Origin: Candidatus Acidiferrales bacterium
GTDB taxonomy: Bacteria; Acidobacteriota; Terriglobia; Acidiferrales; UBA7541
Reading direction: 5' to 3'
DNA: 64,000 nt
Assembly: GCA_035934015.1 (NCBI GenBank)
Contig: DASYYH010000027.1
Span: forward strand, 1-64,000
Part shown: positions 3,636 to 63,609 of the stretch, piece by piece
How the letters are laid out: the number at the start of each line of letters is the position of its first letter
Position numbering within the stretch: position 1 is the stretch's first letter
The notes under the pieces: generated by a model
What the model was told of the DNA's origin: nothing
The model's input: the letters and a program-made list of their open reading frames with translations, nothing else
Database searches by the model: none
Position numbers and translations under genes: made by a program

Positions 3636-5483
3636 TCAGCCAGCCGATCGCATTTCGAGCCTCGGATGCTTGAGGTGGAAGGGTGTCGCGTTCTGATAGG
3701 CACGGGCAAACGCGAGTAGTTTGCTTTCTCCAAACAGTTGCCCAAGAAATGTAAGGCTCACGGGAGTACCGGGTCCGCCATAATTTCCAACCATTCCATC
3801 TTTGTTCTCGACCGCCGGCGGAGCATCGTCGCCGCGAAAGCCATTCGGAAGAATCAGGGCTGGATGCCCCGTGAGATTCGTCACCGTGAGCTGCTCACCA
3901 TTTGTCGGCGCAACAATGACGTCAAAACTCCCGAAGGCCTTCGCTACGCCTTGCATCGCAAGGAATTTTGCGCGGTTTGCCTGAACATATTCAACGGCTG
4001 GAACGAAACGCGCGGCGCGGAAAGTATTCGGCCAGGCAGTGGGCCCCTGATCCACCATCAGTTTGTCGCGACCGGTGCGAGTCAATTCGTCGAAAGCCGC
4101 CGCTGCCTCCACGTTGAGGATCGTAACCATCGGCTGGTACGGTAGCTTCGGGAGTTCGACAGGAATCAATTTAACACCCATCTGGGACAATTTTCGAAGT
4201 GCCGCATCGTTAAACTTTTGATCTGACTCCGCTGATGCAATGAATTGTCGACGCTCCTCATCGCTGATTCCCCGAGATCCCTTCAGACGTTCTTCCAGCG
4301 CCGCTCGATCAAATTTGAATTCCGATTCGAGGTATCCGACGCGGAATTTGCGCCAATCCTGATGTGCGTTCCAATTAAAAACAGCCGGTCGAACCGAACG
4401 ATCTTCCCCATCCGGCCCGGCTATCGCGTCGAGTACAAGTGCACAATCCTCGACGCAGCGACAAATAGGACCTAGCTTGTCCTGGCTCCAAGACAATGCC
4501 ATCGCTCCGGTGCGCGGCACATGTCCAAATGTCGGACGCAGCCCCGTACAACCACAGCGTGTGCTGGGTGAAGAAATTGACCCGAGCGTCTCAGATCCAA
4601 CCGAAAAGCCAACGCATCCTGCGGCGGTCGCTGAGGCTGGCCCCGCTGAAGAACCACTCGATCCTTGATCAGGATTCCAAGGATTGCGTGTAACACCTCC
4701 GAACCAGCGGTCTCCCTCTGCAAGCGCTCCGAGCGTGAGTTTTGCGACAAGAACGGCGCCCGCGGCGTCGAGCCGCTTAACTACAGTTGCATCCTCGTCA
4801 ATTGTCTGCTCTTTGTAAGGCGCGGCGCCCCACGTGGTTGGATAGCCCTTGACTGCAAGCAGATCCTTCGCGCCCCACGGAATTCCATGCAGGGGTCCAC
4901 GATATTTCCCAGCAGCGATTTCGCGATCTACCTCCTTGGCTTTGGCGAGCGCACGATCCTCGGTCGGCGTGATTACGAACTGCAAAAGGGGGTCGTAACG
5001 CTTCAGGCGGGCAAGATACATCTGCGTCAGGGCCGTTGACGAAACTTTCTTTGTGCGCAAAATCTCGGTGAGCTCACGAACAGTATAAAAAGCAACCTCC
5101 TCGAGATCCTTTGGCACTCCGCGAACACCTATCGCAGGCGCCGCGGACATTGCCGGCGGACGCTTTACTTTTTCGAGATGCATATCTGTGCTGATGAATG
5201 GGTCGAAAACCATTGCCGGTTGCACGCCGTTGGCGATGTGTAGTTGATATATCTCATCGTAGCCTTTCGCCGCGCTCTCAAGATCGCGGAGCATCATCTC
5301 GCGATCTTCCGGCGGAATGGGAACATCAGCGATGATTGCAGCCTGGCTGATCATGTCCGATGTAATTTTTTGCGCATCGCCATCCGCCATAGCCCACAGC
5401 ACCCCTGGCAAAAGAGTCCCCGCAAGTCCGAATCTCGAGCAAGCGGAAAGGAAATGGCGGCGATCGATCATTATTTTCTCCAT
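3636..5483 (-). CDS. Tat-type exported amidase (amidase-signature family)
   Basis: The 615-residue product begins with a twin-arginine-like leader (IDRRHFLSACSRFGLAG, near residues 6-22), so it is probably folded in the cytoplasm and exported. The catalytic amidase-signature domain (about 130-600) shows Lys206 in GIPWGAKDLL, the Gly/Ser-rich loop GSSGSSAG containing the cis-Ser (about 278), and the nucleophile in GSETLGS (about Ser302). The spacing matches GatA-like enzymes. It hydrolyses an amide, but the substrate cannot be read from sequence. Genomic isolation and export argue against a role in tRNA amidotransfer. ATG 5471 (MIDRRHF) also has a good ribosome site and is an alternative start. 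Confidence 0.82.
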   Translation of the reverse strand: MEKIMIDRRHFLSACSRFGLAGTLLPGVLWAMADGDAQKITSDMISQAAIIADVPIPPEDREMMLRDLESAAKGYDEIYQLHIANGVQPAMVFDPFISTDMHLEKVKRPPAMSAAPAIGVRGVPKDLEEVAFYTVRELTEILRTKKVSSTALTQMYLARLKRYDPLLQFVITPTEDRALAKAKEVDREIAAGKYRGPLHGIPWGAKDLLAVKGYPTTWGAAPYKEQTIDEDATVVKRLDAAGAVLVAKLTLGALAEGDRWFGGVTRNPWNPDQGSSGSSAGPASATAAGCVGFSVGSETLGSISSPSTRCGCTGLRPTFGHVPRTGAMALSWSQDKLGPICRCVEDCALVLDAIAGPDGEDRSVRPAVFNWNAHQDWRKFRVGYLESEFKFDRAALEERLKGSRGISDEERRQFIASAESDQKFNDAALRKLSQMGVKLIPVELPKLPYQPMVTILNVEAAAAFDELTRTGRDKLMVDQGPTAWPNTFRAARFVPAVEYVQANRAKFLAMQGVAKAFGSFDVIVAPTNGEQLTVTNLTGHPALILPNGFRGDDAPPAVENKDGMVGNYGGPGTPVSLTFLGQLFGESKLLAFARAYQNATPFHLKHPRLEMRSAG

Positions 5484-5644
5484 GTCAGCAGCCTCACTGG
5501 CATCACCATGGTAGAGTATCGTGCAAATCAACTCTTGATGTCGGCGGCGCATTCTCCAACTACACGGCTAGCGAGTCAATAACAATAGGAGGCCCCTCTA
5601 TGAGCAGAAGAATAAGAGCATGAAATCGATTGAATACGAACGGG

Positions 5645-6085
5645 CTATTGGACGGTCAAAACGAGAGTGGCAGTCTTCTTCTCGCCAGAAGAATTGGTTA
5701 TGGTCAAAGTATAAGTCGTCGTTTTTTCTGGTGAAACCGAAACACACCTTTCAGGGGATGGCCAAACTCCCTCCGAGGGCTTTGGTGTAAGCATCACGTC
5801 CTTTGCGTTGGAAACGCCATAGCAAATCTGAGATGAGTCCCCCCGATGGATGGCGCCAGGTGCAGCGTAGAAATTCATAATCTCAAAATTGCTCCCGCCT
5901 AGCCCCTCCGCCAATCGTCGCGCGCGTTCTCGCTCCGCCCGTGCTGCTTTTTCCTCGATGGCCTGATTTTCTTCATGACGCGAATAAAATATGCTCGCGA
6001 CGACGAGGCCGACGATTACGACGACAACCCACGTAAATTTGAACAACGTCTGAGGCAATGATTTGTCGTGGGGATCATTTCCCAT
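5645..6085 (-). CDS. Membrane-anchored protein with an Ig-like extracytoplasmic domain
   Basis: The 146-residue protein begins MGNDPHDKSLPQ, has one transmembrane segment (about residues 15-36, VVVVIVGLVVASIF), a charged Glu/Arg coiled stretch (about 40-62) and a beta-rich C-terminal domain (about 65-146). That domain ends in TTTYTLTITNSSGEKKTATL, the usual closing strands of an Ig-like/PKD-like fold. It is probably a periplasmic-facing anchor protein of unknown role. ATG 6085 is preceded by GGAAGGA. Two cysteines (in QICYGV and PERCVS) could form a disulfide. Confidence 0.6.
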   Translation of the reverse strand: MGNDPHDKSLPQTLFKFTWVVVVIVGLVVASIFYSRHEENQAIEEKAARAERERARRLAEGLGGSNFEIMNFYAAPGAIHRGDSSQICYGVSNAKDVMLTPKPSEGVWPSPERCVSVSPEKTTTYTLTITNSSGEKKTATLVLTVQ

Positions 6086-6229
6086 TTGAGAATCCTTCCA
6101 ATAACCCAAGAGGCCGGATCTTCAATCTTCTTTCAGGAGCTCGCGCCATAAATCTCGTTTCAGGGCTTCTCTCAACACGATCCTCATACTTCTACTACTC
6201 TATCTCAAGTGCAACTTGGAAGGAGGAGT

Positions 6230-7387
6230 TTAAGCTTCAACAGCGGTCGACGGGCGTATCCGCTCAAAAATCGAGTCCAAAAAGTCGGGGATTTCAAATA
6301 CGGCTCGATTAGTCTCGCGGGACGCGTTCTTTCGGCACTCGGCAAGTCTCTCAGGCTGGAGAAGCTCTGCGACAGCCGGAACGATGTTCCGGAAAGAGCG
6401 GAGTACAATGCCCACATTTCGCGTGCGGATCCATTCCGCGTTGTATCGCTCTTGGGGGAGCGTCCATGCATTGCATTCGGCGATTACCGGCAGACCCTCG
6501 GCGACGGCTTCTGAAATGCTTCCCGGTCCTGGTTTGCCGATGAAGAAATCCGAAATATGCATGTAATAAGGAATTTCGTTTGTGAATCCTTCGACAAAAT
6601 AACGCACGCAAGATTTCTTCTCGCGGAGGGCTCTGGCAAGATCTCGGTTTTTTCCACAGATCAAAATCAGTTGAAGATCGATCTCAGAGCGAGCCAACCG
6701 ATCGACAATTTCGACCATGACACGATTTCCATGCCCGCCGAACAACACCAGAGCCGTCGGCACATCCGGCAGTAAGTTCAGCTGATGACGTTCCAGTGCG
6801 ACATCTGAGGATTGCGGCTCGTAAAAACGCGGATGGAGGATCATTCCCGAAGCCTGAAATATATGGTTCCTCCCATGTCCTAGAGCGATCGCTTGAGCGA
6901 CAGCTTTTTCTGATCCACAGACGAAAAATTGTTCCTGACGCTCGATCCAAAAATGTGGCGGGTAATCAGCTAGATCAGTAAGGATAGTGACAAACGGCCG
7001 ACCCGGAAAAACTTTCCTATAACTCTCGCACAAAGCGCGATTGAAGTGCGGGACAAAAGAAACCAGCATATCCGGCTGCGTCATCTCCCAATGCCGTTCG
7101 AGCAGCCGAACAATCTGCCGGCGATAAGCGCGAATGACCAGTTGCAGGACTCTCATGAGTTGCGTACTACCGAGCGTCCAGCCATTTCTGAGCATGCCGT
7201 TGTAGAAGTCCTGTATCCGGATGCCAGCGTATTTCTTCAAGATGTCAATATCGTCGAGAACTTCTTGGAGGTTGGTGAGTCGAATTTCCCATGGCCGCCG
7301 CTGGGCTTGAATGGCCATCTGAAGCGCCGTGGCTGCCGCGCGGTGGCCGCCACCGGCATCGAAAAAGCCGAATTCGATTCGCTCCAT
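6230..7387 (-). CDS. GT28-type glycosyltransferase, MGDG synthase/diacylglycerol glucosyltransferase-like
   Basis: The 385-residue protein opens MERIEFGFFDAGGGHRAAA, the glycine-rich acceptor-domain loop typical of MGDG synthase and UgtP-like diacylglycerol glycosyltransferases. A second Rossmann half contains LVLFGGHGN (nucleotide-sugar domain start) and GKPGPGSISEAVAEGLPV, the donor-binding signature of family 28. The likely reaction transfers a hexose to a lipid at the inner face of the membrane. ATG 7387 was chosen over the start at 7405 because the core fold begins immediately. It is divergent from the PHP-PAP2 pair, and together they suggest lipid remodelling. Confidence 0.75.
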   Translation of the reverse strand: MERIEFGFFDAGGGHRAAATALQMAIQAQRRPWEIRLTNLQEVLDDIDILKKYAGIRIQDFYNGMLRNGWTLGSTQLMRVLQLVIRAYRRQIVRLLERHWEMTQPDMLVSFVPHFNRALCESYRKVFPGRPFVTILTDLADYPPHFWIERQEQFFVCGSEKAVAQAIALGHGRNHIFQASGMILHPRFYEPQSSDVALERHQLNLLPDVPTALVLFGGHGNRVMVEIVDRLARSEIDLQLILICGKNRDLARALREKKSCVRYFVEGFTNEIPYYMHISDFFIGKPGPGSISEAVAEGLPVIAECNAWTLPQERYNAEWIRTRNVGIVLRSFRNIVPAVAELLQPERLAECRKNASRETNRAVFEIPDFLDSIFERIRPSTAVEA

Positions 7388-45616: not shown

Positions 45617-45907
45617 TGGTAACAAGAGTTACGAATTCCGCGTGTGTTTGGTTCCAAGGGAAACAATTAAGCAGAATAAAAACAGAAGCGTTGGTAGGGG
45701 CGGTGGGGATTTCTACTATCATTGACCCAGAAGGATTTAGCTTTCGGCGCATCTGATTTTTCCAGTGTTGTTGGACAACATCTGGTAGCAGAACTGGTAG
45801 CATTTTCGGGCGAGCCTGTCAAACAAGTGAGCGCCTTCAGAAGTTCGCGTTGTCTTTCACGGCTCAATACAAGAATGATGCAAGTGCTTCCTAGTGCCAA
45901 CGGCCTA
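45617..45907. other. Junction between chromosome and accessory island
   Basis: Just under 300 bp without a supported gene. It has a short palindrome (GGCCTATTGGCC, 45902-45913) but no tRNA, recognisable attachment site or insertion-sequence end. The island's left edge probably falls here, because gene style changes from long chromosomal genes to short packed ones. Confidence 0.35.
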
Positions 45908-49189: not shown

Positions 49190-50668
49190 ATGAAACTCAG
49201 CAAGTCGAAGTTCATTGCGGGCTGCCAATGCCTCAAGCGGCTCTATTTACAGGTACACGAGCCGGAACTCGCCGCTGACCCGGACGGTGCCACAGAAGCG
49301 ATTATCGAGCAAGGGCACGAGGTCGGCTTGCTTGCCCGCCAGTTGTTTCCGGCCGGGGTCGAGGTTCGCAGCGACGGCGGGTTGGGTCAGGCGATTCGCA
49401 CAACGAAGCAGCTAATCGCGAATCCCGAAATTCCGGCGATTTTCGAAGGTGCCTTTGAACACGAGGGCATAATCGTCAAAGCGGATGTCCTGCAACGTCG
49501 CAAGGAGAACCTCTGGCGTCTTGTGGAAGTGAAATCCGCCACCAATTTGAGAGACCAATACGTCCCAGACTTGGCGATTCAGAGCTACGTGCTCTCCGGC
49601 TTCGGCTTGAAACTAGCGTCGGTTTGGCTGGCTCATATCAACCGAGCATACGTGCTGACGGGAACAAGGGTTGATCCCCAACAGTTGTTTTCATTTCGAA
49701 ATCTCACCCAGAGAGTACGGAACTTCCAGCCCGAACTTATTTTGCGGCTGCGCTCACAACTCCATGTTCTGGCGATGCCGAAAGCTCCCGATGTTCCCAT
49801 CGGAGCACAGTGTCTCAATCCGTTCATCTGCGAGTTTTTCACTCACTGCAACCCACCCAAGCCGCACAACCACATTGGCTACCTCCTTCGCCTTGATGTG
49901 AATGCAATGAAAAAGCTGGAGCAAATGGGTGTTCAGTCTATCGAAGACATACCCGCAGATTTTGAGCTAACCGAGATTCAACGGCGTGCATGTACGGCGG
50001 TACAAACGGGGCAGCCATGCTTCAGTCCAGACCTCAAGAGACAGTTCGCATCTCTCAAATTTCCGCTTTACTTTATGGATTTTGAAACTGTCAACCCAGC
50101 GATCCCGCGATTTTCTGGCATGCGTCCCTACGATCACCTGCCGTTTCAGTGGTCAGTCCATGTGCAGCGCCAGCCGGGTGATGCGCCCGAACATTTTGAG
50201 TTCTTGGCTACGGACAGAGGCGACCCTCGAACTCCGTTTATCTCCGCGCTCTGTGAGGCTTTGGGAGAAGGTGACGGCAGCATCGTCGTATACAACGAGC
50301 AATTCGAGTCACAGCGACTTTGGGAGCTAGCGAGTTGGCGGCCCGCTTACACTGATCGCATCAGGGGAATCCAACGCCGCCTCTGGGACTTGCTCCCGGT
50401 GGTGCGCAATCACGTCTATCATCCGGCTTTCCGAGGCTCATTTTCTTTGAAAGCTGTTCTGCCCGCCTTCGTCCCCAACATGACATACGAGGGAATGGAA
50501 GTCCCAGACGGGCAGGCCGCTGGACTTGCATGGGAGTCGATGATCAGCGACGGTTGCAGTGAACCGGAACGACAAGCAAAACGGAAGACGCTCTTAGCTT
50601 ATTGTGGGCAGGACACACTGGCACTTGTGCGGCTTCTCGAAACACTCCAGAGTCGCTGCGCGACCTAA
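49190..50668 (+). CDS. RecB-like nuclease, DUF2779/TM0106 type
   Basis: The 492-residue protein begins MKLSKSKFIAGCQCLKRLYLQ, a Cys-containing N-terminus. A PD-(D/E)XK-like nuclease region shows Asp99 in VKADVL and Glu113-Lys115 in EVKSAT. Further Cys (FICEFFTHCNP) suggests a Cas4/AddB-like iron-sulfur site. The C-terminal half is the DUF2779 domain (YFMDFETVNPAIPRFSGMRPY and YCGQDTLALVRLLE), an RNase H-like exonuclease fold. Function is inferred as nucleic-acid processing. Its stop codon overlaps that of the convergent Res gene. It may be part of the same defence block. Confidence 0.75.
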   Translation: MKLSKSKFIAGCQCLKRLYLQVHEPELAADPDGATEAIIEQGHEVGLLARQLFPAGVEVRSDGGLGQAIRTTKQLIANPEIPAIFEGAFEHEGIIVKADVLQRRKENLWRLVEVKSATNLRDQYVPDLAIQSYVLSGFGLKLASVWLAHINRAYVLTGTRVDPQQLFSFRNLTQRVRNFQPELILRLRSQLHVLAMPKAPDVPIGAQCLNPFICEFFTHCNPPKPHNHIGYLLRLDVNAMKKLEQMGVQSIEDIPADFELTEIQRRACTAVQTGQPCFSPDLKRQFASLKFPLYFMDFETVNPAIPRFSGMRPYDHLPFQWSVHVQRQPGDAPEHFEFLATDRGDPRTPFISALCEALGEGDGSIVVYNEQFESQRLWELASWRPAYTDRIRGIQRRLWDLLPVVRNHVYHPAFRGSFSLKAVLPAFVPNMTYEGMEVPDGQAAGLAWESMISDGCSEPERQAKRKTLLAYCGQDTLALVRLLETLQSRCAT

Positions 50669-53382
50669 ACTTTGATGGGAGTGTTATCAGATTTCAGCGT
50701 AAAAGCTGCCGCGAGACCTTGGAGCGTCTTTGCTTCATCAACGGCATCATGAGGAATCAGCAGGTATGACCACGGCTTGCCGCCCACTGCAATTTCGTGG
50801 TTGGTAGCGTGCTCGCACCATTCGACTGCCGCCTTCGCTTTCTCCCGTACTTCAGCAGAGGCGATCTCTTTCCTCATTTTTGTTTCGCAAATTAGCTTCG
50901 CCGCTTTCGTTTCGATGACGAAATCTGGCTCGTAGGGAGTGCCGCCAGCGTAGTAGATGTGGAACGAATCTTTGCCGGGCTTGAACCACTTCACCACATC
51001 AACGTCGTTTTCCAGCAAAACCGAAAATCGGCGCTCTGTGTCGGACTGAAACCTTTGGGCGGGATACAAGCACCTTTTGAATCCTCCGAACAGCATGCCC
51101 CGAATCATCAGTTTCTCTTCCACCGGAATCCGAAAATCTCTTGGTTGTTCGCCCACGGGAATCGAATAGCTGCTGGGTCGAAGAGTTGTGAAGCCCTTGG
51201 TTACATGCGCCTCGTATTCGCTCGCCTTTTCTTCGTAGTGCTCCTGCATTTGCGAGTGGATGAGAGCCACGAGTTGCGCTTGGTGATATTGGAGAACGTT
51301 TTTGACATCTTCCTCGTCCGCAAGATACGACTGAAGATGCTTCACCGCTTGCCCTGCCAATTTGTACAGAAGGTCGGCTTGGTCGTCATAGCTCACGTCG
51401 TCGAAATCGACTAGACCTCGGACGAGGTAGTCTTCCAATCTTTCCTCGGGAACGATTCCGTCGCCGCTAATCAGGCGGTATCGCTGGTGGTCATTCAGGT
51501 GCGCAATCAGAATGTCCTTGGCGACTGGCTGAAGTTGGACGCTCTTCAGGTCGAGATCGAAGTCCCGGTAGCCTGCGGTCACTTCGCCCTTGGGAGTTAC
51601 AACGATGCGCGGGATGTCGATTGAGTTCTCGATGAAGAGGTTGACGGTCTTTGACACGATGGCGGGAATATCGGCTTGCGGAACAACCTCAGCAAGTTCG
51701 CCCTGCGCCGGAGCACTGGCTGCCTGAACCTTCTCCACGATTTTCTGGATATTCTCTGGTTTCCTCAGATCGTCCGACCGCGCCAGTCGCTCAAAATCCT
51801 TGAGCACCGTTAGAGTCGCCCGGGCTACCTCCTGCTCGCGCTTTGTGTTGAAGAGCGGCTTTTGCTCGGGAATCGTTGGGTCGGCAGCCGCCCGTTTTTC
51901 CAGATTTGATGTCACCTCAAAGACGGTCATGTTTTTATCGGGGATGTCACGACCAATTACAACTCCAGTTCTGATGATGGAGTCCGGCTTGTTTGCCTCG
52001 TCGATAATTTCTTGAAAGCGGTCGTGCGAAACGATGGTGAGGCGATCTACAGACGCGACGCCAACTCTCTTTCCGTAGGGCAGGCGCAATCCACGTCCTA
52101 TCGACTGCTCGACTAATGTCTTCGAATTTGCCGCACGCAGAGGAACAATGGTGTAAAGGTTCGTAACGTCCCAACCCTCTTTCAACATGTTCACATGGAT
52201 GACGATTTCGGTGGGGTTGTCCCGGCTCTCAACGGACAGAAGTTGTTGTACGGTTTCGTCCTTCTCGTCGCCCTTTTGATTCGAATGAACCGTGATCACC
52301 TTGCCTTTGTAGCGTCCCTCGAAGAACGAGTCGTCTTCAATTCGCTTCAACAAATCGTCGGCGTGGTCGGTGTTTTCAGCGACAACGAGCATGAACGGTT
52401 TAACGATAGGTTTGTCGTTATCCCTAGCGAACACTTCTAGCTCGACCTTGGTGTTCTCGTGGATTCGGACACCGTCTTCCAGTTTTAACTTCTCCAGCCC
52501 TGCCTTGTCGTAATTTTTCGCATCGAAGTTCTCTCTGGTCGCCACCGCTGGCTCCTTGACGAAGCCGTCCTTCATCGCGCTGGAGAGCGGATAGCTGTAG
52601 ATCACGTTCTTAAACGGCTCAGTCTTTCCACCCGTTTCTATCTGCGGGGTGGCGGTAAGCTCCAAGCCCAAGATCGGCTTCAACTCATTGATCGCCCTCA
52701 CGCCAGCCGTCGCACGGTAGCGGTGCGATTCGTCCATCATGAGCACGAGGTCGTGGAGTCCCGCTAAATAATCGAAATAGCTTTGCCCGATGTATTCGCT
52801 GAGGCGTTTGATTCGCGGGGCCTTGTCGCCGCGAACCTCGGCGTTGATCTTCGAGATGTTGAAGATGTTGATGTGAATCGGGCTGGCGTCGAACAAATCG
52901 CCAGTCTTCCCAAGAACTTCCGCGCTCCGCACGCCTCGACCGCTCTCGTAATTGTCGCCAGTGATGACTTCCGGTGGGTTCGTCGCAAACTCTGCGATTC
53001 CTTCGAACACATACTTCGGGGTGTTCGGCGTGAAGTCAGCGATCAGCTTGTTGTAGATGGTGAGGTTTGGGGCGAGAACAAAGTAGTGGCGACTCAATTT
53101 CTGCCTGAAGAGATACGCAATGAAGGCACCCATGAGCCGGGTCTTGCCGACACCCGTTGCAAGGGCAAAGCACAGGGAGGGAAAATCCCGCTCGAAATCG
53201 GTGACGGATGGAAATTCCGCTTGAATCGTCTTTAGAGCGTTGCCAATCTCCAGTTCTGACGCGCCGGATACGATACGATCCAATGCAAGGATTTCAGCGA
53301 CTCGTGCCAGAATCTCCAGCGATTCCCGCTGCGGCAAACGGAGGCTTAGCCGATTCGCGATAGCGTTCACCGCAGAGTTCAT
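50665..53382 (-). CDS. Type III restriction Res-like helicase-nuclease
   Basis: The 905-residue protein has a superfamily 2 helicase core: Walker A ATGVGKT (Lys80), DESH (217-220), LTATP (about 242) and motif VI EQSIGRGLRLPYG. The C-terminus holds a PD-(D/E)XK-type nuclease, YEPDF (Asp820) followed by ETK (833-835). These are the marks of type III Res subunits, which pair with Mod to cut unmethylated DNA. It overlaps the upstream methyltransferase gene (ATGA) and completes the three-gene operon with the SNF2 helicase. Confidence 0.88.
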   Translation of the reverse strand: MNSAVNAIANRLSLRLPQRESLEILARVAEILALDRIVSGASELEIGNALKTIQAEFPSVTDFERDFPSLCFALATGVGKTRLMGAFIAYLFRQKLSRHYFVLAPNLTIYNKLIADFTPNTPKYVFEGIAEFATNPPEVITGDNYESGRGVRSAEVLGKTGDLFDASPIHINIFNISKINAEVRGDKAPRIKRLSEYIGQSYFDYLAGLHDLVLMMDESHRYRATAGVRAINELKPILGLELTATPQIETGGKTEPFKNVIYSYPLSSAMKDGFVKEPAVATRENFDAKNYDKAGLEKLKLEDGVRIHENTKVELEVFARDNDKPIVKPFMLVVAENTDHADDLLKRIEDDSFFEGRYKGKVITVHSNQKGDEKDETVQQLLSVESRDNPTEIVIHVNMLKEGWDVTNLYTIVPLRAANSKTLVEQSIGRGLRLPYGKRVGVASVDRLTIVSHDRFQEIIDEANKPDSIIRTGVVIGRDIPDKNMTVFEVTSNLEKRAAADPTIPEQKPLFNTKREQEVARATLTVLKDFERLARSDDLRKPENIQKIVEKVQAASAPAQGELAEVVPQADIPAIVSKTVNLFIENSIDIPRIVVTPKGEVTAGYRDFDLDLKSVQLQPVAKDILIAHLNDHQRYRLISGDGIVPEERLEDYLVRGLVDFDDVSYDDQADLLYKLAGQAVKHLQSYLADEEDVKNVLQYHQAQLVALIHSQMQEHYEEKASEYEAHVTKGFTTLRPSSYSIPVGEQPRDFRIPVEEKLMIRGMLFGGFKRCLYPAQRFQSDTERRFSVLLENDVDVVKWFKPGKDSFHIYYAGGTPYEPDFVIETKAAKLICETKMRKEIASAEVREKAKAAVEWCEHATNHEIAVGGKPWSYLLIPHDAVDEAKTLQGLAAAFTLKSDNTPIKV

Positions 53383-55175
53383 TTGCCTTTGTCTCCTTTC
53401 TCGGCGGCGGTGGCAAACAACTCCATAGAGTCATTATTGCGTTTCTTGCGACCGTTCGTTTGAAGCGAGGGGACTAGTTCCGGCTCGACTGCTTGTGGCA
53501 AGTTCTTGACCTCTAGACTGTAGTCATCCCTGCCCCATTCGCAGCGATTTAGAACCATCTTCGGAATCTTCTTGATGGTCATGTTCGGGAACTGCGAAAC
53601 GTCTCTTACTCGGAATGCCGAGCAGCACACCAGTAGGGATCGGTTCTCACCAACTTCGTCGCTCAGCTTTTGCAGTTGTTCGCGGGTGAGCGTCTGTGTG
53701 GTTACGTAGATAAAGTCACGCTCGGTGGAAAACCCATGGTTCCAATAATCAGCACCACTTGGTGCATACGTGAAACCCTCGAATTTGCACATAGCCTCGG
53801 CGAGCATCGCAGCGTTATATCGCTTGCTTATCACCCAGTTGCCGAACTTGTCCTTCTCAAGTAGCGAAGAGGCAAGACGGAAATAGCGGAACCCACCACC
53901 GCCTAGCCACCCAACTTCTCCAGTTATGCCACTCTCGTCGATTCCGTCGATGATGCGTTGTAATCTCGGAATTATAAGAGTGTGACAGTGATCCCTAAGC
54001 TCAACCATGATCCAGCGCCGTCTCATCTTGTGTGCTACTGCCCCTGTGGTTCCCGACCCAGCAAATGAATCGAGAACGATATCCCCGGGTCGAGAAAAGT
54101 GCTTCAAGATGATCTCCATGTATGTTTCCGGTTTCTTACCGGATCGAAAATCCACACCTCCTTCGTGTCTGCAATTTCCAAAATTTGCGGCAAGATCGTA
54201 AAAGTTCTCGATTGGTTTTTCTTTCGAGGAGCGACCGTTCAGGAGTTCCGCCAACCTGTCGAGCGGAATGCCTGAATAGAATTTCCCCTTGGTTGCTGCG
54301 GCTCTTTTGGGCCCCGTAAAGTATCTATAACCAATGCCGTCTTCGCCTATGCCGTACACCTTATAAAGGCATCCCAGCCCGTCTTCTTCTTTCCGGGGAG
54401 ACAAGTATTTCGCAAGAAACTCTCCCGAGCTTGCCTTCTGTTTTATCAGGGAGCCTGTTGCCCATGTCTCTTTCAGTGCCTTAAGGTGTGGTTTAACTTT
54501 TGTGACTTCGTATTCCCCGAGACGGAATACCTCCACTTTCTTCCCCGCCACTTCAACCTGTTTCCATGGAGTCTTCTCTCGGACTTCCCACTCGAACTTT
54601 TCGACTTTATATTCTTCGGATGCTTTCAGTGGGCGGCAAAGTGCGGCATCTCTTGCATAAACAAGGCATTGTTCGATCACCTTTTGATAATCATTATCTT
54701 CGGCTAAGGTCTTGTTGCCGTACCGCACTTGAATGTACATAGAGGTTAGATAATTAGCTCGACCGAACACTTCATCCAAAAGAACTTTGAGGTAATGACC
54801 TTCCGAGTCGTCAATGTGGCAGCAGAAGAACCCATCAGGTGCAAGGAGTCTTCTGAGAATTTCAAGTCTGTCGCGCATCAGGCTAAGCCAGACAGAGTGC
54901 TCCAGACCGTCATCATAGTGCTCGAATGCGTTTCCGCTGTTGAAAGGCGGATCGATGAAAATGCAATTGATCTTGTTTCCGAACTCCTGTTCAAGCGCCT
55001 TCAACGCCAAAAGATTGTCGCCAAAGATCACACGATTATCGAATAAGTCGTCATCTGTTATTTTTGCGTGAGCATGATACGATTTACTCGCATCCTCCAG
55101 CAGAATACGCGGCTCCAATAACGGGCGACTCTCTTTGCCTATCCACGTTAATTCCAGCTTTGTTGTTTTATTCAT
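53379..55175 (-). CDS. Beta-class adenine-type DNA methyltransferase (type III Mod-like)
   Basis: The 598-residue protein has its catalytic motif first, IFIDPPFNSGNAF (Asp75), and the SAM-binding motif second, DSFAGSGTTG (about 369-378), with the target-recognition region between them. This order defines beta-class enzymes and fits type III Mod. DPPF rather than DPPY is within the accepted range. ATG 55175 follows AGGAG very closely; GTG 55190, two bases past the previous stop, is the alternative. The gene sits between the SNF2 helicase and Res genes. Confidence 0.88.
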   Translation of the reverse strand: MNKTTKLELTWIGKESRPLLEPRILLEDASKSYHAHAKITDDDLFDNRVIFGDNLLALKALEQEFGNKINCIFIDPPFNSGNAFEHYDDGLEHSVWLSLMRDRLEILRRLLAPDGFFCCHIDDSEGHYLKVLLDEVFGRANYLTSMYIQVRYGNKTLAEDNDYQKVIEQCLVYARDAALCRPLKASEEYKVEKFEWEVREKTPWKQVEVAGKKVEVFRLGEYEVTKVKPHLKALKETWATGSLIKQKASSGEFLAKYLSPRKEEDGLGCLYKVYGIGEDGIGYRYFTGPKRAAATKGKFYSGIPLDRLAELLNGRSSKEKPIENFYDLAANFGNCRHEGGVDFRSGKKPETYMEIILKHFSRPGDIVLDSFAGSGTTGAVAHKMRRRWIMVELRDHCHTLIIPRLQRIIDGIDESGITGEVGWLGGGGFRYFRLASSLLEKDKFGNWVISKRYNAAMLAEAMCKFEGFTYAPSGADYWNHGFSTERDFIYVTTQTLTREQLQKLSDEVGENRSLLVCCSAFRVRDVSQFPNMTIKKIPKMVLNRCEWGRDDYSLEVKNLPQAVEPELVPSLQTNGRKKRNNDSMELFATAAEKGDKGK

Positions 55176-55193
55176 GCTCCTGCCGCGCACCGT

Positions 55194-58082
55194 TCACTTC
55201 AGTGACCAACGTACCGTAAACACCGGGGTTACATTGCAATCCTGCTGAAGTTTCCTCTCTATCGTCTCGATCAGGTCTTGCCGCTGCTTATCCACCCGGT
55301 CTTGGGCATCGAACAGTTCCCGGCGCTTACGGTTTCGTGCCGATTCAAGCTCACGAACTTGCTTTTGGATGGACAACTTCTCCGCCAAAGCCACAGCGAT
55401 TTGAGCGGATCGTCTCGTCTCCCGAATCTGTCGGTCGAGTTCCTTCAACTCTTGCTCCAACCCGATCTTGAGATCGTCTGACCAGCGGTCGAGCTTATCC
55501 AATTCGCTTTCGAAGAATGCCGCATTTCGCTCTGTAAGTTTCGCTAGAACTTCATTTTGTTGCCTTTGCAGACCCTCGTCCAACAGCGCTTGAAGCTGTT
55601 CAGACAAGGGAGAGCAATCTTCTCGTTTCTCTGATGCACCGAGCGAGAAGAATCGGCGGCACTGCTCCGCATCCATAGGAGTACCGTCATCGCACACGGC
55701 GCTCAAAAGAACGAAATCCTCGGTTTCGAGAGCGGTCACCGTTTGACAAGTGATCCGCATGAAGCCCTGCTTTCCGACGAGCGGCTCAAGGATAGAGATT
55801 TTCTTGCCGGAGTGCGAATATTCGAATGCCAACGCTTGCGAATCAGGCTCAAAGGCTTTACACCGCTCAATGATGCGCTGAGCGAGAGGGTGCCCCAACC
55901 TATATAAGTTGGCATCCTCGATGTTCTTGCCGCTACGGTACGGGCCGGGGTGAATCTGCTCTTCGGGGAACGGGTTCTTGATCAGCGTGAATCCATTTTG
56001 TCCATCGTCGAATTTGGCATAGGGCTGGAGGAAGAAGCGGGTCAGTTGCCAGAGCCAGTTATCGTACTTGGTCAGGGCTTCGCTGCTTTCTCGTTGGTTC
56101 ACCCGCAGTTTTTCGTGAACCTCCTCGTCGAAGTTCTCTAGCAACTTTTGGCGGGTCTGTTTTATGCGCTCGTCAATCTGAACTTCCATTTCCTGCTGAA
56201 GCTGGTCGAAATTAAACTGAATCTGCTCCTCCGTCCGGCACTTTTGGTAGATGTCAGCGATACGCTTTTCGAAATCTATGCCGGAGCCGATGCTTCCAAG
56301 CACTTCGTCGCTGGCTCCGAAGACACCGCTGAAGAGCTTGAACTTCTCATCAAGCAGTTGATATACGCGCTGATCCGCAGCGTTCTTTTTGTTGAGAAAA
56401 TTCACGACGACCACGTCGTGCTTTTGCCCGTACCGATGACAGCGCCCGATCCGCTGTTCGATCCGTTGCGGATTCCACGGCAGGTCGTAATTGATTACCA
56501 AGGAGCAGAACTGGAGGTTGATGCCTTCCGCAGCCGCTTCGGTCGCGACCATGATGATTGCCTCGTCTCGGAAGTAGTCAACGAGGGCAGCCCGCATGTC
56601 AGCAGTCTTCGAGCCTGTGATCAGGTCGGTGCCTTCATGCTTCTTCAGCCAGTCCTGATAAATCTCCTTCGATTTGGGATCGTTGTTCGAGCCATTGAAT
56701 AGGACGACTTTGCCTTTGTAGCGGGGAAGCTCCTCAAGAATGGAGCGGACGTATTCCTGAGTCCGAGTGGACTCCGTGAAGATGATCGCCTTTTCTCTAC
56801 CGCCCTTGCTTTTCGCTTCCGCTAGCCCACGCTTCAGCGCGGTTTGAAGTCTCTCGCCTTTCGAGTTTTTGACAATCGAATTCGCGAGTTCAGTAAAAAG
56901 CCGGAGCGACTGAATCTCTTCTGCCACCTTTCCCAACTCTTCCGGGCTGAGCACTCGTGGATCGGACTTCTTCTCACCCGCGCTCTCGTCCTCCTCTTCT
57001 TCCCATTCGTCCTCCAATTCCTCAAAGCTCTCGAAGGTTTCGGGTACCTCTTCAGGAGGCTCCACAACGGGTTTTTGCGCCTCAGTGGCTTTTTCCAGCT
57101 TTTCCGCCAATCCCTTCAGCGTTCCCGCAATCGCAAATGTCGATGAAGCCAAGAGCCGTCTGAGGATCAGAGTCATCAACTGCCGTTGGCTTGCTGGAAG
57201 CGCGTAGAGATTCTGCCGTTGCAGATAATCGGAGACGAGGTTGTAGAGCTTCTGCTCCGGCTCGCTCGGGATGAACTCCTCCACCAGTGCGATACGATTC
57301 GTAAACGGGATGTATTCGAGCACTTGACGCCGGAGTGTCCGTTGGCAAATCGGCTTCAGACGCTCACGTAGCGACCGAAAATCACCGTCCGTGTCCAGCC
57401 GAGAGAACTGGCTGCGAAAGCTCTTGATGTCCCCGAAAATGTGCTCATCGATGATGCTGACCAAGCCGAAAAGTTCGAGGAGCGAGTTCTGAAGGGGCGT
57501 GGCGGTCAGAAGCAACTTGTCAAACGGCGCGAGAGCAGCCTTGAGCGCATTCCCGATCTTGTTCGTGGGCTTGTACACGTTCCGAAGCCGATGCGCCTCA
57601 TCAATCACTGCGAGGTTCCATGCGACTTGCCTAACATACGGCTCTTTGGAGCGAGCAAACTGGTACGAGCAGATCACGATCTCGGAGCGGTCGAATGGGT
57701 TCAGGTTCCCCGCTCGAATCTGCTCGTTGAAAGTCTTCGTTTCCAGCAGTACAGAGGGCAGGAAGAACTTGTCCGAAAGCTCCTGATGCCACTGTTTGCG
57801 GAGGCTGGCGGGAACGATGATCAAAATTTTCCTCTTTCGTTCCGCCCACCGCTGGGACAACAGAATCCCTGCTTCAATGGTTTTACCGAGACCAACTTCA
57901 TCGGCGAGGATCGCCCCCTTCGAGAGCGGAGAGCGGAAAGCGAACAGCGCAGCCTCGACCTGATGCGGGTTCAAGTCAACCTGCGCGTCAGCAAGGGAAG
58001 CAGCCAGCTTCTCCATGCTGTCGGAGGCACACCGTTTTGTCAGTTCATACGCAAAGTACTTCGCGTGGTATGCAGTGCTCAT
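55194..58082 (-). CDS. SNF2/RapA-like helicase of a defence operon
   Basis: The 962-residue protein has the SNF2-type helicase motifs: ADEVGLGKTIEAG (Lys67), IDEAH (about 160-164), LLTATPLQNS, and in the second lobe GINLQFCSLVINYDLPWNPQRIEQRIGRCHR. The C-terminal 150 residues are a long charged coiled coil (RQIRETRRSAQIAVALAEK and on). It resembles RapA-like ATPases linked with DNA methyltransferase-Res pairs in defence loci. ATG 58082 (MSTAYHAKYFA) is the preferred start. It is the first gene of the operon, with 91 bp to the divergent TIR gene. Confidence 0.85.
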   Translation of the reverse strand: MSTAYHAKYFAYELTKRCASDSMEKLAASLADAQVDLNPHQVEAALFAFRSPLSKGAILADEVGLGKTIEAGILLSQRWAERKRKILIIVPASLRKQWHQELSDKFFLPSVLLETKTFNEQIRAGNLNPFDRSEIVICSYQFARSKEPYVRQVAWNLAVIDEAHRLRNVYKPTNKIGNALKAALAPFDKLLLTATPLQNSLLELFGLVSIIDEHIFGDIKSFRSQFSRLDTDGDFRSLRERLKPICQRTLRRQVLEYIPFTNRIALVEEFIPSEPEQKLYNLVSDYLQRQNLYALPASQRQLMTLILRRLLASSTFAIAGTLKGLAEKLEKATEAQKPVVEPPEEVPETFESFEELEDEWEEEEDESAGEKKSDPRVLSPEELGKVAEEIQSLRLFTELANSIVKNSKGERLQTALKRGLAEAKSKGGREKAIIFTESTRTQEYVRSILEELPRYKGKVVLFNGSNNDPKSKEIYQDWLKKHEGTDLITGSKTADMRAALVDYFRDEAIIMVATEAAAEGINLQFCSLVINYDLPWNPQRIEQRIGRCHRYGQKHDVVVVNFLNKKNAADQRVYQLLDEKFKLFSGVFGASDEVLGSIGSGIDFEKRIADIYQKCRTEEQIQFNFDQLQQEMEVQIDERIKQTRQKLLENFDEEVHEKLRVNQRESSEALTKYDNWLWQLTRFFLQPYAKFDDGQNGFTLIKNPFPEEQIHPGPYRSGKNIEDANLYRLGHPLAQRIIERCKAFEPDSQALAFEYSHSGKKISILEPLVGKQGFMRITCQTVTALETEDFVLLSAVCDDGTPMDAEQCRRFFSLGASEKREDCSPLSEQLQALLDEGLQRQQNEVLAKLTERNAAFFESELDKLDRWSDDLKIGLEQELKELDRQIRETRRSAQIAVALAEKLSIQKQVRELESARNRKRRELFDAQDRVDKQRQDLIETIERKLQQDCNVTPVFTVRWSLK

Positions 58083-58149
58083 CGCAAGGCGCAATCATAC
58101 ATCGAGAACCGATGGCGCTGTTGCCTAGATCGCCAATCCGCGCCTAAAA

Positions 58150-58173: not shown

Positions 58174-59733
58174 ATGGGCACACAGGCGAAATTAGAACTA
58201 CAGCATCCTTCCTCGACTGAGAAGGACATATTTCTATGTCACAACGGCGCAGATAAGCCGTGGGTCGAGGCACTTGCCGAGCGGATCGAGCGCGAACCGT
58301 ACCGCGACCGTCGTCTCGCAGTCGTTTTCGACAAATGGGATTTCGAAAAGGGCGGCAACATCGTCCTCGATATTGAGCGATTTCTGGATAAGACCCGCTT
58401 CGTAGGTGTGGTCGTATCCCGCCCAATGCTGAACGCAGAGTGGCCGAGTTTGGAACGAAGCATCGCGGTGTGGAGCGACCCTTCGGGGGCACGCGGCCGG
58501 GTGATTCCCTTGTTGAAGGACAACATAACCCTCCCGGCAACTCTGAGGGTGCGGAACTGGATCGATTTCCGCGATCCCGAGAAGTTTGAGGAGAGCTTTG
58601 CCGAACTCATTCGGTACCTGCGGGGAGAGCCAATTCCAAGGGGCAAGGGCAGCTTTCTCCCCATGGTTCCGGCAACGCGTGCACCCTATGAACCAGCCCC
58701 TGTGCTTATCACTTCTTCCGTGGGTGCTGATCGGGTAACCGAACGCTTGGTCTGCAATCTCTACAGGGTCACCAGCCTGCCCGAGAGGGTGCACTACGCG
58801 TCAACGAACCTGCGTGAGAAGAAGGAAATCCAAAAATACTGCGAAAACGCGCCGCCATTCATCCTTCGTGAAGGAAATCTTTTCACTTTCTCTGACCTCA
58901 GCACGTGCGAGGCGTTGCGTCCAGTCTTGAAGAAAGATGCACGGACTGATTCGGACGCGTTCAAGGACTGGTTCTCAGATGAGGACTACAGTCGCCGCGC
59001 CATCGAACTTCTGAACGTCTGCCTGCGACAACACGCGTGGGAGCGTCGGCTCCGCTTCGACCGCATCAAGTCGCGGTACTTTTTCCAGCCACGCGGCATT
59101 CAGGTCGAAACAGAGGAAGCCAGCTCCGGTGTGGTGAAATATCGCTACAGCGGCGGCAAGCCTGTCCGTATCGCGTGGAAAATTGGCGGTAGAACCCGAT
59201 GGAGAGAAGTAACGACACGCCATATTCGCCGAGTCAAGCAGGAGGACGGCACCTACAAAGAAGAACCGTTCGGCTGGCGGCACCAAGGTTTCCGGGCTAA
59301 TTTCGTGCTGGTGTTCGAGAGCTTGATGCTACGGATCGAACCGACTTATCTTCTGACAAAGGACGACGGGAAGACGCCGCGTACATCGCGGTGGGTCGGC
59401 CCGATCCTATCGCACTGGCTAAATCAAGAACGGAACGGTCAAATTCTAAGGTCGCTCCGCTTCTGGTCGCTTGTGCTGGCGAGACCAAAAGAGCTAACGA
59501 TTGAGACGGGGCAGATGCCTATTCAGGTTGACCTCACGCCGATTTCGGGGGCGCTTGGGTTTGGCATTGTCAGCGACCAAGTGAATTTTGACCGCCTGAT
59601 GGATGCCGAAATACGGGACGACAGGAAAGTTCCTCAGCTTGAGCTTTTTGGGGAGGAAACCTCGATTGCGTACACGGAAGAAGCGGGCTTTGCCGAGGAA
59701 GACCGCGAGGACGAGAAGGCCATCGAAAGTTAA
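58174..59733 (+). CDS. TIR-APAZ-like protein of a short-Argonaute (SPARTA-type) system
   Basis: The 519-residue protein has an N-terminal TIR domain (about 15-155): KDIFLCHNGADKPWVEALAE, the BB-loop region KWDFEKGGNI, and VVVSRPMLNAEWPSLERS, whose Glu94 is the likely NAD-cleaving residue. Residues 165-515 form a long beta/alpha region with VCNLYRVTSLPERVHYAS, LLNVCLRQHAWERRLRFDR and FRANFVLVFESLMLRIEPTYLLTKDDG, consistent with the APAZ domain that replaces the Ago N/L1/L2 parts. In such systems the complex depletes NAD(P) when the Argonaute binds guided target DNA. No ribosome site is visible. It overlaps the following PIWI gene. Confidence 0.82.
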   Translation: MGTQAKLELQHPSSTEKDIFLCHNGADKPWVEALAERIEREPYRDRRLAVVFDKWDFEKGGNIVLDIERFLDKTRFVGVVVSRPMLNAEWPSLERSIAVWSDPSGARGRVIPLLKDNITLPATLRVRNWIDFRDPEKFEESFAELIRYLRGEPIPRGKGSFLPMVPATRAPYEPAPVLITSSVGADRVTERLVCNLYRVTSLPERVHYASTNLREKKEIQKYCENAPPFILREGNLFTFSDLSTCEALRPVLKKDARTDSDAFKDWFSDEDYSRRAIELLNVCLRQHAWERRLRFDRIKSRYFFQPRGIQVETEEASSGVVKYRYSGGKPVRIAWKIGGRTRWREVTTRHIRRVKQEDGTYKEEPFGWRHQGFRANFVLVFESLMLRIEPTYLLTKDDGKTPRTSRWVGPILSHWLNQERNGQILRSLRFWSLVLARPKELTIETGQMPIQVDLTPISGALGFGIVSDQVNFDRLMDAEIRDDRKVPQLELFGEETSIAYTEEAGFAEEDREDEKAIES

Positions 59734-61231
59734 GGCGCTTCGCGCCGTATCGCTGGAATCCTTACTGTCGCAAAACACGGACAGGCTCACTTGCACGTAC
59801 CTCGCCGAGCCGGAGCTTCTGTTTGGCAACAAACAGCGATGCGTTGATCCCCGTACAGGGCTTGCTGCGTTCGGCCCATACAGCAAGACTGATGCTACGC
59901 GGCGGGAACACATTCATGTCGGGATTGTCGGCCCCGCGGACGCAATCGACAGGGCGGTTGCGCTGCTCGCCCAGATACAGAACCCGATTGATCAGAAGGA
60001 ATCCGTCGATTGTGTGCTTCATCCATCGTTCCCCGGCATGAATTCAGGTGAACCATTCCAAATCGACATCACAACTCAGCCGATCTGGCGTCGCCCACTT
60101 CGTGCCCTTGACGTTCGGCTGGTTGAGCAAGAGGAGGATTTCACTCGCCGCGTTGGACTCCTGAAAAAGTTCGTCGCTGAAGAAGTTCACGCTCTTGCGG
60201 CGCTGGATTCGCCTCCTGATGTCGTCATCTGTGCCATGTCTCAGAACCTCGAAGAGCTTTGCCGAACCGGAATTGCCGAATACGACCGTGAGCATGCTGA
60301 AATCGCAGACCTATTGGGCGGCGACGTCGAGGAAGCGCCGGATGACACATCCCGCAGCTTTCGTAGGGGGCTGAAGGCGGAATGCATGGACGTTTTGCCG
60401 ACGCAGTTAATTTGGCACAAGACGTTGACCGGAACCCGAGGCGTACAGGATTTGGCGACACGGGCGTGGAATCTGACTACAGCCCTCATGTACAAAGCGA
60501 AGATCATTCCGTGGCGGCTGGCGGACATAGTGGAAGGCTCGTGTTTTGTGGGCTTGTCCTTCTACCACGAAGATGAAGCACGGTCGCCGTTCCTGCGAAC
60601 AAGCATCGCGCAGGCGTTTACCGACCGAGGAGAAGGATTTGTGTTACGCGGCGAAACCGTCGAATGGGACGAGCGTAAGGAAAAGGAAAAAGCCCCTCAT
60701 TTGACGAGTGCTCAAGCGCAGCAGATTCTCGGTCGGGTTGTTGAGGTTTATGAGAAACAGGTCGGTATCAGGCCAAGAAAAGTCGTACTCCACAAGACAT
60801 CCCGCTACAACGAAGACGAACGTGCCGGGTTTGAAGCCGCTCTAGCCGGGCAAACACCGCAATACTCATTCCTGACGATTACGCGACGAGGCATTTTCTG
60901 CCTACGACCGGGATACAAAGCTGTTTTGCGAGGAACGATCATCGACTTTGGCGGCAAGAAGGGCTTGGTGTATACGACGGGTTACGCGCCTTTCTTGCGG
61001 TGTTACTCCGGCTTTCGAATCCCGCAGCCACTCGAAATTTCGGAGAACTGGGGTTCGCTGACGTTCCACGAATGCGCTGAGGACATCCTCAGGCTGACGA
61101 AGCTCAACTGGAATACTTCTGCTTTCGCTACGCATGACCCGATCACACTCGCTTTTTCTCGACGCGTGGGCGACATCCTGAAGCTCGCCGGGAATCGCGA
61201 CCCCGCAGTCCAATATCGGTACTACATGTAG
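59666..61231 (+). CDS. Short prokaryotic Argonaute (MID-PIWI, catalytically degenerate)
   Basis: The protein (521 residues from TTG 59666) has a basic N-terminal tail (RTRKKRALPRKTARTRR), then MID and PIWI regions without PAZ or N domains. PIWI marks are VQDLATRAWNLTTAL...IIPWRL, GSCFVGLSFYHED, RPRKVVLHKTSRYNED, and the C-terminal LTKLNWNTSAFATHDPITLAFSRRVGDIL. The first catalytic Asp of active Argonautes is Ser in GLSFY, and HKTSRY lacks the HxD-type Asp, so slicing is unlikely. GGGGAGG lies nine bases before TTG 59666, inside the TIR gene; ATG 59603 is the other candidate. It would guide-load and switch on the TIR protein. Confidence 0.85.
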   Translation: MRTRKKRALPRKTARTRRPSKVKALRAVSLESLLSQNTDRLTCTYLAEPELLFGNKQRCVDPRTGLAAFGPYSKTDATRREHIHVGIVGPADAIDRAVALLAQIQNPIDQKESVDCVLHPSFPGMNSGEPFQIDITTQPIWRRPLRALDVRLVEQEEDFTRRVGLLKKFVAEEVHALAALDSPPDVVICAMSQNLEELCRTGIAEYDREHAEIADLLGGDVEEAPDDTSRSFRRGLKAECMDVLPTQLIWHKTLTGTRGVQDLATRAWNLTTALMYKAKIIPWRLADIVEGSCFVGLSFYHEDEARSPFLRTSIAQAFTDRGEGFVLRGETVEWDERKEKEKAPHLTSAQAQQILGRVVEVYEKQVGIRPRKVVLHKTSRYNEDERAGFEAALAGQTPQYSFLTITRRGIFCLRPGYKAVLRGTIIDFGGKKGLVYTTGYAPFLRCYSGFRIPQPLEISENWGSLTFHECAEDILRLTKLNWNTSAFATHDPITLAFSRRVGDILKLAGNRDPAVQYRYYM

Positions 61232-61787: not shown

Positions 61788-62831
61788 CTACTTCTTTTTG
61801 AATACGAAGATCGGCTCCGTTTTGAAGGCACTTTTTCCGATGTGCTTCAGTCCGACCATTTTGGACAGTTGCAGATGCAAGGTCTCGACTCGACGCCAGC
61901 CGTTGTCTTCCGCGAATTTGACGAAGACTTTTGTCAGATTTGGATACGCAGCCACGCTGGCGATGTTGATCGCGAGGATTCCATTTCTCTTGAGACCGTG
62001 GGCGCAGTTGCGGAGGGTCGCCCCGATGAACCCGTGCAGCCAACTCTCCTGCGTAGGAAATTTGCAGTGGCTTTGCGTCGGTTCGTCGCTGTAATGTTCC
62101 CACCCGAAGTAGCTGGGACTACTGAACGCACAGTCCAAGGAATTCCGCTCCGGCTGGAAATCCTCGCTTCCAACCTTGTGAAGTTCGACTTCCATCGTCC
62201 GCCGACCGAATTGTTCAGCCATCGGAACGAGTTCCGCAGCCATCTCACGAAGCCCGTCCATAGCGTAGGTCGAGGGATCGGTTCCGATGTAACGATTCAC
62301 GCGGTCGCAGGCGAGCGCTCCCAGCAGGCGACCGCCAAATCCTGCCGACATGTCCCAGACCGCGCCGCCGCTTTCTGGAAGGAGCCGATGATAAACAGCG
62401 GCGGCTGCCGTGGGGCGAAAATTGGAAACGGATTGCGTGCTGGAGAAGCTCCTCAATATTTTTCGCAGCCCGCTGTCGGTGAATGCGTTCCCGAGTTTTG
62501 TCCGCCGCTCGATTGCCCTGAGAAATAGCAGATCATTGCTGAACAACTCAACTGGGGTCTTCCTGTTCCCGCACCTCACAGTCCACGCAAGGGGATGATA
62601 GTGCCAAGCCAGCGCGAGACCGTGCATCGTTTGCTTGATCCGCCCCTGCTTGTCGATGATCGTTGCGTGGTCGGCGACGAGAAGGTCGAGAAGGTCATGC
62701 CGTTTCTCATCCCTCTTCAGTGAGTAAACGGGAAAGCCCTGTTCTCGATATTGCTCGAAATCGGCGCGGCATGACGCGAGGTCGTCATGTCGAAGGAAAG
62801 GCAGCACTGCTGGTCGTGCGCTAGTGCCCAT
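61788..62831 (-). CDS. Mobile-element DNA methyltransferase-like protein with SPSY active-site variant
   Basis: The 347-residue protein has a class I methyltransferase fold with DMSAGFGGRLLGAL (about 160-173) as the SAM site and FSSPSYFGWEHY (Ser-Ser-Pro-Ser-Tyr, 237-241) where amino-methyltransferases carry (D/N/S)PP(Y/F). The order (SAM site first) and the spacing suggest a DNA amino-methyltransferase or a relative that modifies another substrate. The second Pro is Ser, which could lower activity. It starts at ATG 62831 (GGAG ten bases upstream) and overlaps the stop of the preceding gene by 11 bases. Confidence 0.7.
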   Translation of the reverse strand: MGTSARPAVLPFLRHDDLASCRADFEQYREQGFPVYSLKRDEKRHDLLDLLVADHATIIDKQGRIKQTMHGLALAWHYHPLAWTVRCGNRKTPVELFSNDLLFLRAIERRTKLGNAFTDSGLRKILRSFSSTQSVSNFRPTAAAAVYHRLLPESGGAVWDMSAGFGGRLLGALACDRVNRYIGTDPSTYAMDGLREMAAELVPMAEQFGRRTMEVELHKVGSEDFQPERNSLDCAFSSPSYFGWEHYSDEPTQSHCKFPTQESWLHGFIGATLRNCAHGLKRNGILAINIASVAAYPNLTKVFVKFAEDNGWRRVETLHLQLSKMVGLKHIGKSAFKTEPIFVFKKK

Positions 62832-63609
62832 TCCGACCGTTCTCCGGCGAATCCCCAAGCATCAGCGCGTGCCGAACTCTCGCTTGCCGCACAATAGCCA
62901 AACTGACTCCGCAGGCTTTTGCTGTTTCCTCGTCGGTGCCGCCGTTCTTGGCGATGAACTTGGCGATGCCATAGTGCATGTCGGCGCAGCCGCCGCAGTC
63001 TTGAGGGAAGGGTTTCTGAGTGGGTAGAATCGGCGGCAACGTGGCACTACCGTTCATCGCACTGTTTTGAGTTCTAGCTACGGCACGGCGATTTTGTTTA
63101 GCACGACTGTTCTGATTTCCGCGACTCGTCACGGCGACGGATACCTCAACTCGCCCGTGCCGCTCGCCGAACCGATCTGCCACGGCTTGCGCGAAGCTCT
63201 GAATCACTTTGGCGAAACGCTCGCCGCTTTCAAGCGGCCCAAACACCTTCGCCATCTGGTTCTCGGTGAGCATGAGCAGTGCACGCCAATCGCCTTTGGC
63301 CAATCTGGACTGTGCCTTCTGCCCTCGCGAAGAAATTTCGCTAGGCTCGCTTAGGAGTTGCTGCACGCGGCGGGGACTGACATGCAGATTTTGCTTGATC
63401 CATTCCGTCCAGCAGGGGCGTCCGGGCACAGGGACTTGCCGCCCCGGCTGCGCCCATCGCCTCCGCGCCTCCCGCAAATAGGGGACAAGCTCTCGCAGTT
63501 TCCTGAAGCCCTGAACGCACTTGTCCACCAACTCCGCGTCCGACAGCGTTCGCACGAAGTCGTCGGCTGGCTGAGCTTGAAAATCCAGCGTTCTCCTCTG
63601 GGGCAGCAA
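62821..63609 (-). CDS. Mobile-element protein with HTH-like segments, function unknown
   Basis: The protein (262 residues from TTG 63609) contains ELVDKCVQGFRKLRELVPYL, then WTEWIKQNLHVSPRRVQQLL, a helix-turn-helix-like unit. The C-terminal segment GGTDEETAKACGVSLAIVRQAR is a second HTH-like unit. A CGGCADM motif (two Cys) precedes it. TTG 63609 has AGGAG eight bases upstream; the frame is open to 63951, but the extra part (rich in Cys and Arg) looks non-coding. It resembles uncharacterised phage/plasmid proteins. It is the first of the minus-strand pair with the methyltransferase. Confidence 0.6.
   Translation of the reverse strand: MLPQRRTLDFQAQPADDFVRTLSDAELVDKCVQGFRKLRELVPYLREARRRWAQPGRQVPVPGRPCWTEWIKQNLHVSPRRVQQLLSEPSEISSRGQKAQSRLAKGDWRALLMLTENQMAKVFGPLESGERFAKVIQSFAQAVADRFGERHGRVEVSVAVTSRGNQNSRAKQNRRAVARTQNSAMNGSATLPPILPTQKPFPQDCGGCADMHYGIAKFIAKNGGTDEETAKACGVSLAIVRQARVRHALMLGDSPENGRNGH

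Follow-up and report, generated by a model that had tools for sequence, protein, structure and literature searches.

The locus lies in a stretch of 64,000 nucleotides of acidobacterial DNA (the window), whose coordinates up to 64000 are also those of the contig. Two genes on the forward strand encode a TIR-APAZ protein and a short Argonaute (pAgo); their features and surroundings are collected in Table 1. An earlier note on this DNA had placed two overlapping ORFs here, and both the ORFs and their overlap were confirmed.

Table 1. Features of the TIR-APAZ/pAgo locus and its surroundings, in window coordinates.
Feature	Position	Strand	Basis or remark
attL-like 20-bp direct repeat, left island end	45691..45710	.	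right copy at contig 73176-73195, in tRNA-Lys, beyond the window
Res and Mod of a type III restriction system with a DrmD-like SNF2 helicase (neighbouring defence cargo outside the pair)	50665..58094	-	model matches
TIR-APAZ effector protein, 519 aa	58174..59733	+	ORF, Pfam, APAZ models, fold match
TIR domain, residues 19-146	58228..58611	+	Pfam TIR_2, E 2e-20
Codon of Glu94, likely catalytic Glu of TIR NADase	58453..58455	+	aligned with SPARTA Glu77
APAZ region, residues 175-472	58696..59589	+	fold match to SPARHA/SPARDA/SPARTA APAZ and profile match
Shine-Dalgarno-like GGGGAGG ahead of proposed pAgo start	59650..59656	+	sequence; similar in L071
MID-PIWI short Argonaute of 521 aa, counted from the proposed TTG	59666..61231	+	models, PDB matches, start analysis

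The TIR domain that the earlier note had seen in the first protein was confirmed with Pfam. In an alignment with SPARTA TIRs, Glu94 falls on Glu77, which is the catalytic residue of SPARTA (PMC10474274), and by homology it is likely to be the catalytic residue here, as had been proposed. Seven of eight relatives share this Glu; in the remaining one, locus L088, it is Gln. This divergent clade member (L088, 2037-3605) is also without the FDKWDF motif, and its pAgo is intact. The C-terminal part, previously described as APAZ-like, was matched by PADLOC APAZ models (best 1e-32) and, by sequence, by the SPARHA HNH-APAZ chain 9om4_A (5e-9). In a fold comparison of the predicted model (residues 175-472), Z reached 19.1 to 9om4_A, up to 17.5 to SPARDA and at most 15.8 to SPARTA; the mean pLDDT of the TIR-APAZ model was 54, the APAZ core being its only trustworthy part. 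A nuclease effector on APAZ (DREN, SMEK or HNH), a trait of SPARDA and SPARHA, is absent from the window protein, which has a TIR instead.

The second ORF matched short-pAgo models at 6e-134, nine solved short pAgos of SPARHA, SPARDA and SPARTA type in the PDB at E < 1e-40 and SPARSA at 5e-25. The catalytic Asp positions of PIWI are occupied by Ser (GLS) and Thr (HKT), which bears out the earlier description of a MID-PIWI protein with Ser/Thr at these sites. HKT/GxS is also found in S2B and S1; in most SPARTA members these motifs read HA/HG and GLV. An AlphaFold model of the pAgo was set aside (pLDDT 40). Counted from ATG 59603, the ORF would give 542 aa. We prefer TTG 59666 as the probable start because it stands nine bases after GGGGAGG and is conserved in Occallatibacter; with this start the two genes overlap by 68 bp.

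The guide-contact residues of NbaAgo have been named (PMC12205087), and we compared them with the window pAgo. Nine of them (F182, R183, K187, W201, R221, Q224, N232, L233 and K240) are all conserved, and the window pAgo differs at W159, N181, S447, N451 and R459. Apart from the window pAgo, Trp201 was found only in DREN systems within the compared set. The conserved pocket supports a 5'-phosphorylated RNA guide for the window pAgo, and would predict guides biased to 5'-A or 5'-AU like those of NbaSPARDA. Filament contacts shared with NbaSPARDA were also considered and rejected, the contact residues not being conserved in the window proteins. Their absence is uninformative because SPARHA is also without them, and the sequence backs no mode of assembly, filament or other.

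In searches of the PDB, the window pAgo matched SPARHA at 2e-65 (224 bits), SPARDA at 2e-60 to 5e-54 (187-208 bits) and SPARTA at 1.5e-47 (162-166 bits). The window TIR-APAZ gave no match at E < 1 by sequence to the solved SPARTA TIR-APAZ chains in the PDB; as a control, a Rhizobium plasmid SPARTA matched solved SPARTA chains with both pAgo (1e-125) and TIR-APAZ (1e-60). The reference PDB sequences came from printed alignments and are partial. Profile scores of the APAZ region were 164 to SIR2-HATPase-APAZ, 157 to HNH-APAZ, 143 to DREN-APAZ and 51 to SPARTA APAZ. The TIR scored 93 and 60 against two pairs of stand-alone TIRs and 46 against SPARTA TIRs; this comparison is biased towards the stand-alone TIRs because the focal TIR was the query that found them.

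We built a tree of 41 pAgo proteins, rooted on SIR2-type S1; the effector types of the reference loci, from Pfam or record annotation, were DUF4365, SMEK, HNH, SIR2+HATPase, PNP and SPARTA TIR. SPARTA formed one clade (100/100) that excluded the window pAgo, and the window and three relatives formed a separate one (100/100). The maximum-likelihood tree put the window clade with S2B (69/82) and beside SPARHA (71/70), both with weak support, and the deep branch order of S2 short pAgos is without firm support. Placement inside SPARTA (SPARTA minus its deepest member, L051) was rejected, being 94 log units worse (AU p 1.3e-8). Sister placement to the whole of SPARTA was not rejected (p 0.33 for pAgo, 0.45 for APAZ and 0.33 for TIR). 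The window system is outside the SPARTA (S2A) clade as sampled. The earlier label of a SPARTA-type system holds for the effector, a TIR, but not for the scaffold, since pAgo and APAZ fall outside the S2A clade.

The earlier note had also suspected a divergent branch, and the divergence itself stands, on the basis of the pAgo/APAZ lineage and not for the reasons then given. It had described many pairs as Argonaute-first, and had taken effector-first as a possible mark of divergence. A same-strand ORF lies immediately upstream of pAgo in 32/32 non-fused short-pAgo loci with upstream sequence (SPARTA, SPARDA, SPARHA, SIR2 and PNP types), and it was recognised as APAZ/effector in all but one of them, so effector-first is general. 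The 519-residue length of the TIR partner is no sign of divergence either.

Compared with known systems, the window pair shares with SPARTA (S2A; MapSPARTA, CrtSPARTA) a TIR-APAZ gene followed in an operon by a catalytically inactive short pAgo, an aligned TIR Glu and an APAZ of the same fold. It differs in that neither its pAgo nor its APAZ belongs to the SPARTA clade, its TIR-APAZ is undetectable by sequence with SPARTA chains, its PIWI has HKT/GxS instead of HA-HG/GLV and its TIR is of another subfamily by profile score. SPARHA (HNH-APAZ and short pAgo of Acidithiobacillus caldus, 9om4) is the nearest solved relative of both pAgo and APAZ, but has an HNH nuclease where the window has a TIR, and the pAgo identity is about a third. 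SPARDA (DREN/DUF4365-APAZ and short pAgo; NbaSPARDA, XauSPARDA) shares the guide-pocket residues including Trp201 and an APAZ profile match, whereas its effector is a PD-(D/E)XK nuclease and its filament contact residues are not conserved in the window. The S2B-like SIR2-HATPase-APAZ systems (L045, L046) gave the top APAZ profile score and belong to an NAD-directed effector class, with SIR2 plus HATPase-like domains where the window has a TIR. The published surveys consulted place TIR on the SPARTA branch alone: for APAZ group IIa, Ryazansky 2018 (PMC6299218) gives TIR, and for group IIb it gives DUF4365, SIR2 or the lack of any added domain. The S2A/S2B scheme is quoted in PMC12205087. No published report of a TIR on an S2B short pAgo was found in a literature search that did not reach Koopal 2022 or any SPARHA paper.

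The window pair is real, complete and conserved. Its clade comprises eight loci, namely the window, L071 (Occallatibacter savannae) and the MAGs L072, L073, L074, L075, L076 and L088, and is nearly all acidobacterial, in agreement with the acidobacterial setting noted before. Some records are duplicates (L073 is the L087 sequence, L074 the L043 contig, and L075 matches G584/L082), and L072, labelled Syntrophobacteraceae, is a 4.3-kb contig that may be misbinned. TIR-APAZ and pAgo occur together in all six clade loci that cover both genes, and both proteins are under purifying selection (dN 0.10-0.21, dS saturated). In the L043/L074 contig, the pAgo (5085-6562) is split by a frameshift, either a pseudogene or an assembly error. 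The TIR-APAZ is present in 5/399 genomes of the class and absent from four other genomes of the genus. We found no relatives among viral contigs and phages and no full-length TIR-APAZ relative on plasmids, and a promoter and terminator scan gave nothing above chance.

The window copy is carried on a 27.5-kb island in tRNA-Lys (contig 45691-73195), with the 20-bp repeat TTGGTAGGGGCGGTGGGGAT at both ends. A tyrosine integrase adjoins the right end, and an empty, uninterrupted site was found in a genome of the same genus (G573). The cargo includes, besides the restriction and helicase genes of Table 1, a resolvase and a Pnkp/Hen1 pair. Of the relatives, L071 adjoins a type I restriction system, L073 the conjugation genes TrwB and TrwC, and L076 an integrase gene. 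The island setting and the mobile and conjugation neighbours of relatives therefore indicate that the system travels with mobile elements. Res, Mod and then the DrmD-like SNF2 helicase apparently form one operon, which may be an unusual restriction system. The Pnkp/Hen1 genes (L089 4418-8529, contig 65417-69528) are a bacterial RNA-repair pair. Adjoining the TIR-APAZ/pAgo pair, 61788-62858 encodes a protein resembling methyltransferases, which weakly matches the model of mad2, a defence protein of MADS (3.5e-7).

We consider it likely that the pair is a two-gene abortive-infection defence with a TIR effector on a separate, S2B-like short-pAgo lineage. The short pAgo would pair with the partner's APAZ region to form a single nucleic-acid-sensing heterodimer, which would load a small 5'-phosphorylated RNA and find complementary invader DNA. 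Target binding would make the heterodimers assemble and bring the TIR domains together, NAD(P) hydrolysis would be switched on, and the infected or plasmid-invaded cell would die or stop growing. We infer that the guide is RNA and the target DNA, that the complex oligomerises, that the TIR acts as an NADase and the cell dies, and that the TIR had an origin of its own. The mode of action is most likely like that of SPARTA, and the system probably destroys NAD on detecting foreign DNA in a soil acidobacterium. This NAD loss is deduced from the TIR and its Glu, and the NADase role suggested earlier is upheld on that footing. The sensing chassis is most similar to the SPARHA, SIR2-HATPase and SPARDA systems, and in its most likely history a TIR domain was placed on it independently of SPARTA.

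SPARDA and SPARHA assemble as filaments and SPARTA as a tetramer. A stronger form of the proposal, which we hold only tentatively, is that a TIR NADase captured independently by the S2B chassis is activated through the chassis' own assembly (e.g. a filament) and not through the SPARTA tetramer, as a convergent second Argonaute-gated TIR. Another history would make the window branch a deep sister of SPARTA, with one ancestral TIR-APAZ/pAgo pair, fast evolution in SPARTA and slow evolution in the window branch, the same mechanism and no domain swap. A single TIR origin with later divergence from SPARTA is possible, and the larger distance to SPARTA could be due to SPARTA's own fast evolution; the common effector type, the common order of TIR-APAZ then pAgo and the topology tests of pAgo, APAZ and TIR agree with this. 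We nevertheless regard it as rather unlikely, as the tree puts the window, weakly, with S2B and beside SPARHA, the APAZ profile is nearer S2B APAZ and the TIR profile nearer stand-alone TIRs, and the window pAgo is without the PIWI motif changes of SPARTA.

A different product is improbable but conceivable, in that a target-triggered TIR might make a signal molecule or a product of base exchange, with NAD(P) depletion not its main effect. Some bacterial TIRs (Thoeris, AbTIR) yield cyclic ADP-ribose isomers, and by profile the focal TIR resembles stand-alone TIRs more than those of SPARTA; however, the pair has neither a receptor gene nor a further effector gene fused to it or beside it, its neighbours on the opposite strand encode restriction proteins and a helicase, and the relatives adjoin unrelated genes. 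That the pair is a decaying or inactive remnant kept as island cargo seems very improbable. The lost Glu of L088 and the frameshifted pAgo of L043/L074 would fit such decay, but the window copy is intact, guide-pocket residues and TIR Glu included, and against Occallatibacter dN is 0.10-0.18 with dS saturated.

A TIR on a branch other than SPARTA would mean that sensors and effectors can be exchanged. With such a system one could see, in a case provided by nature, whether the geometry of activation is set by the Argonaute chassis or by the effector, and this additional combination of guide pocket and TIR may serve NAD-based nucleic-acid detection.

Other partners of short pAgos were also seen. 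In L048, L049 and L050, acidobacterial short pAgos have as their partner an APAZ protein with a PNP_UDP_1 phosphorylase; the combination of PNP and pAgo has been listed as Cap17(pAgo) (PMC10952713). The partner of an S2B pAgo on a Nostoc plasmid (L065, 2215-3492) carries an EAD8-like (effector-associated) domain ahead of APAZ, which suggests recruitment of a separate effector.
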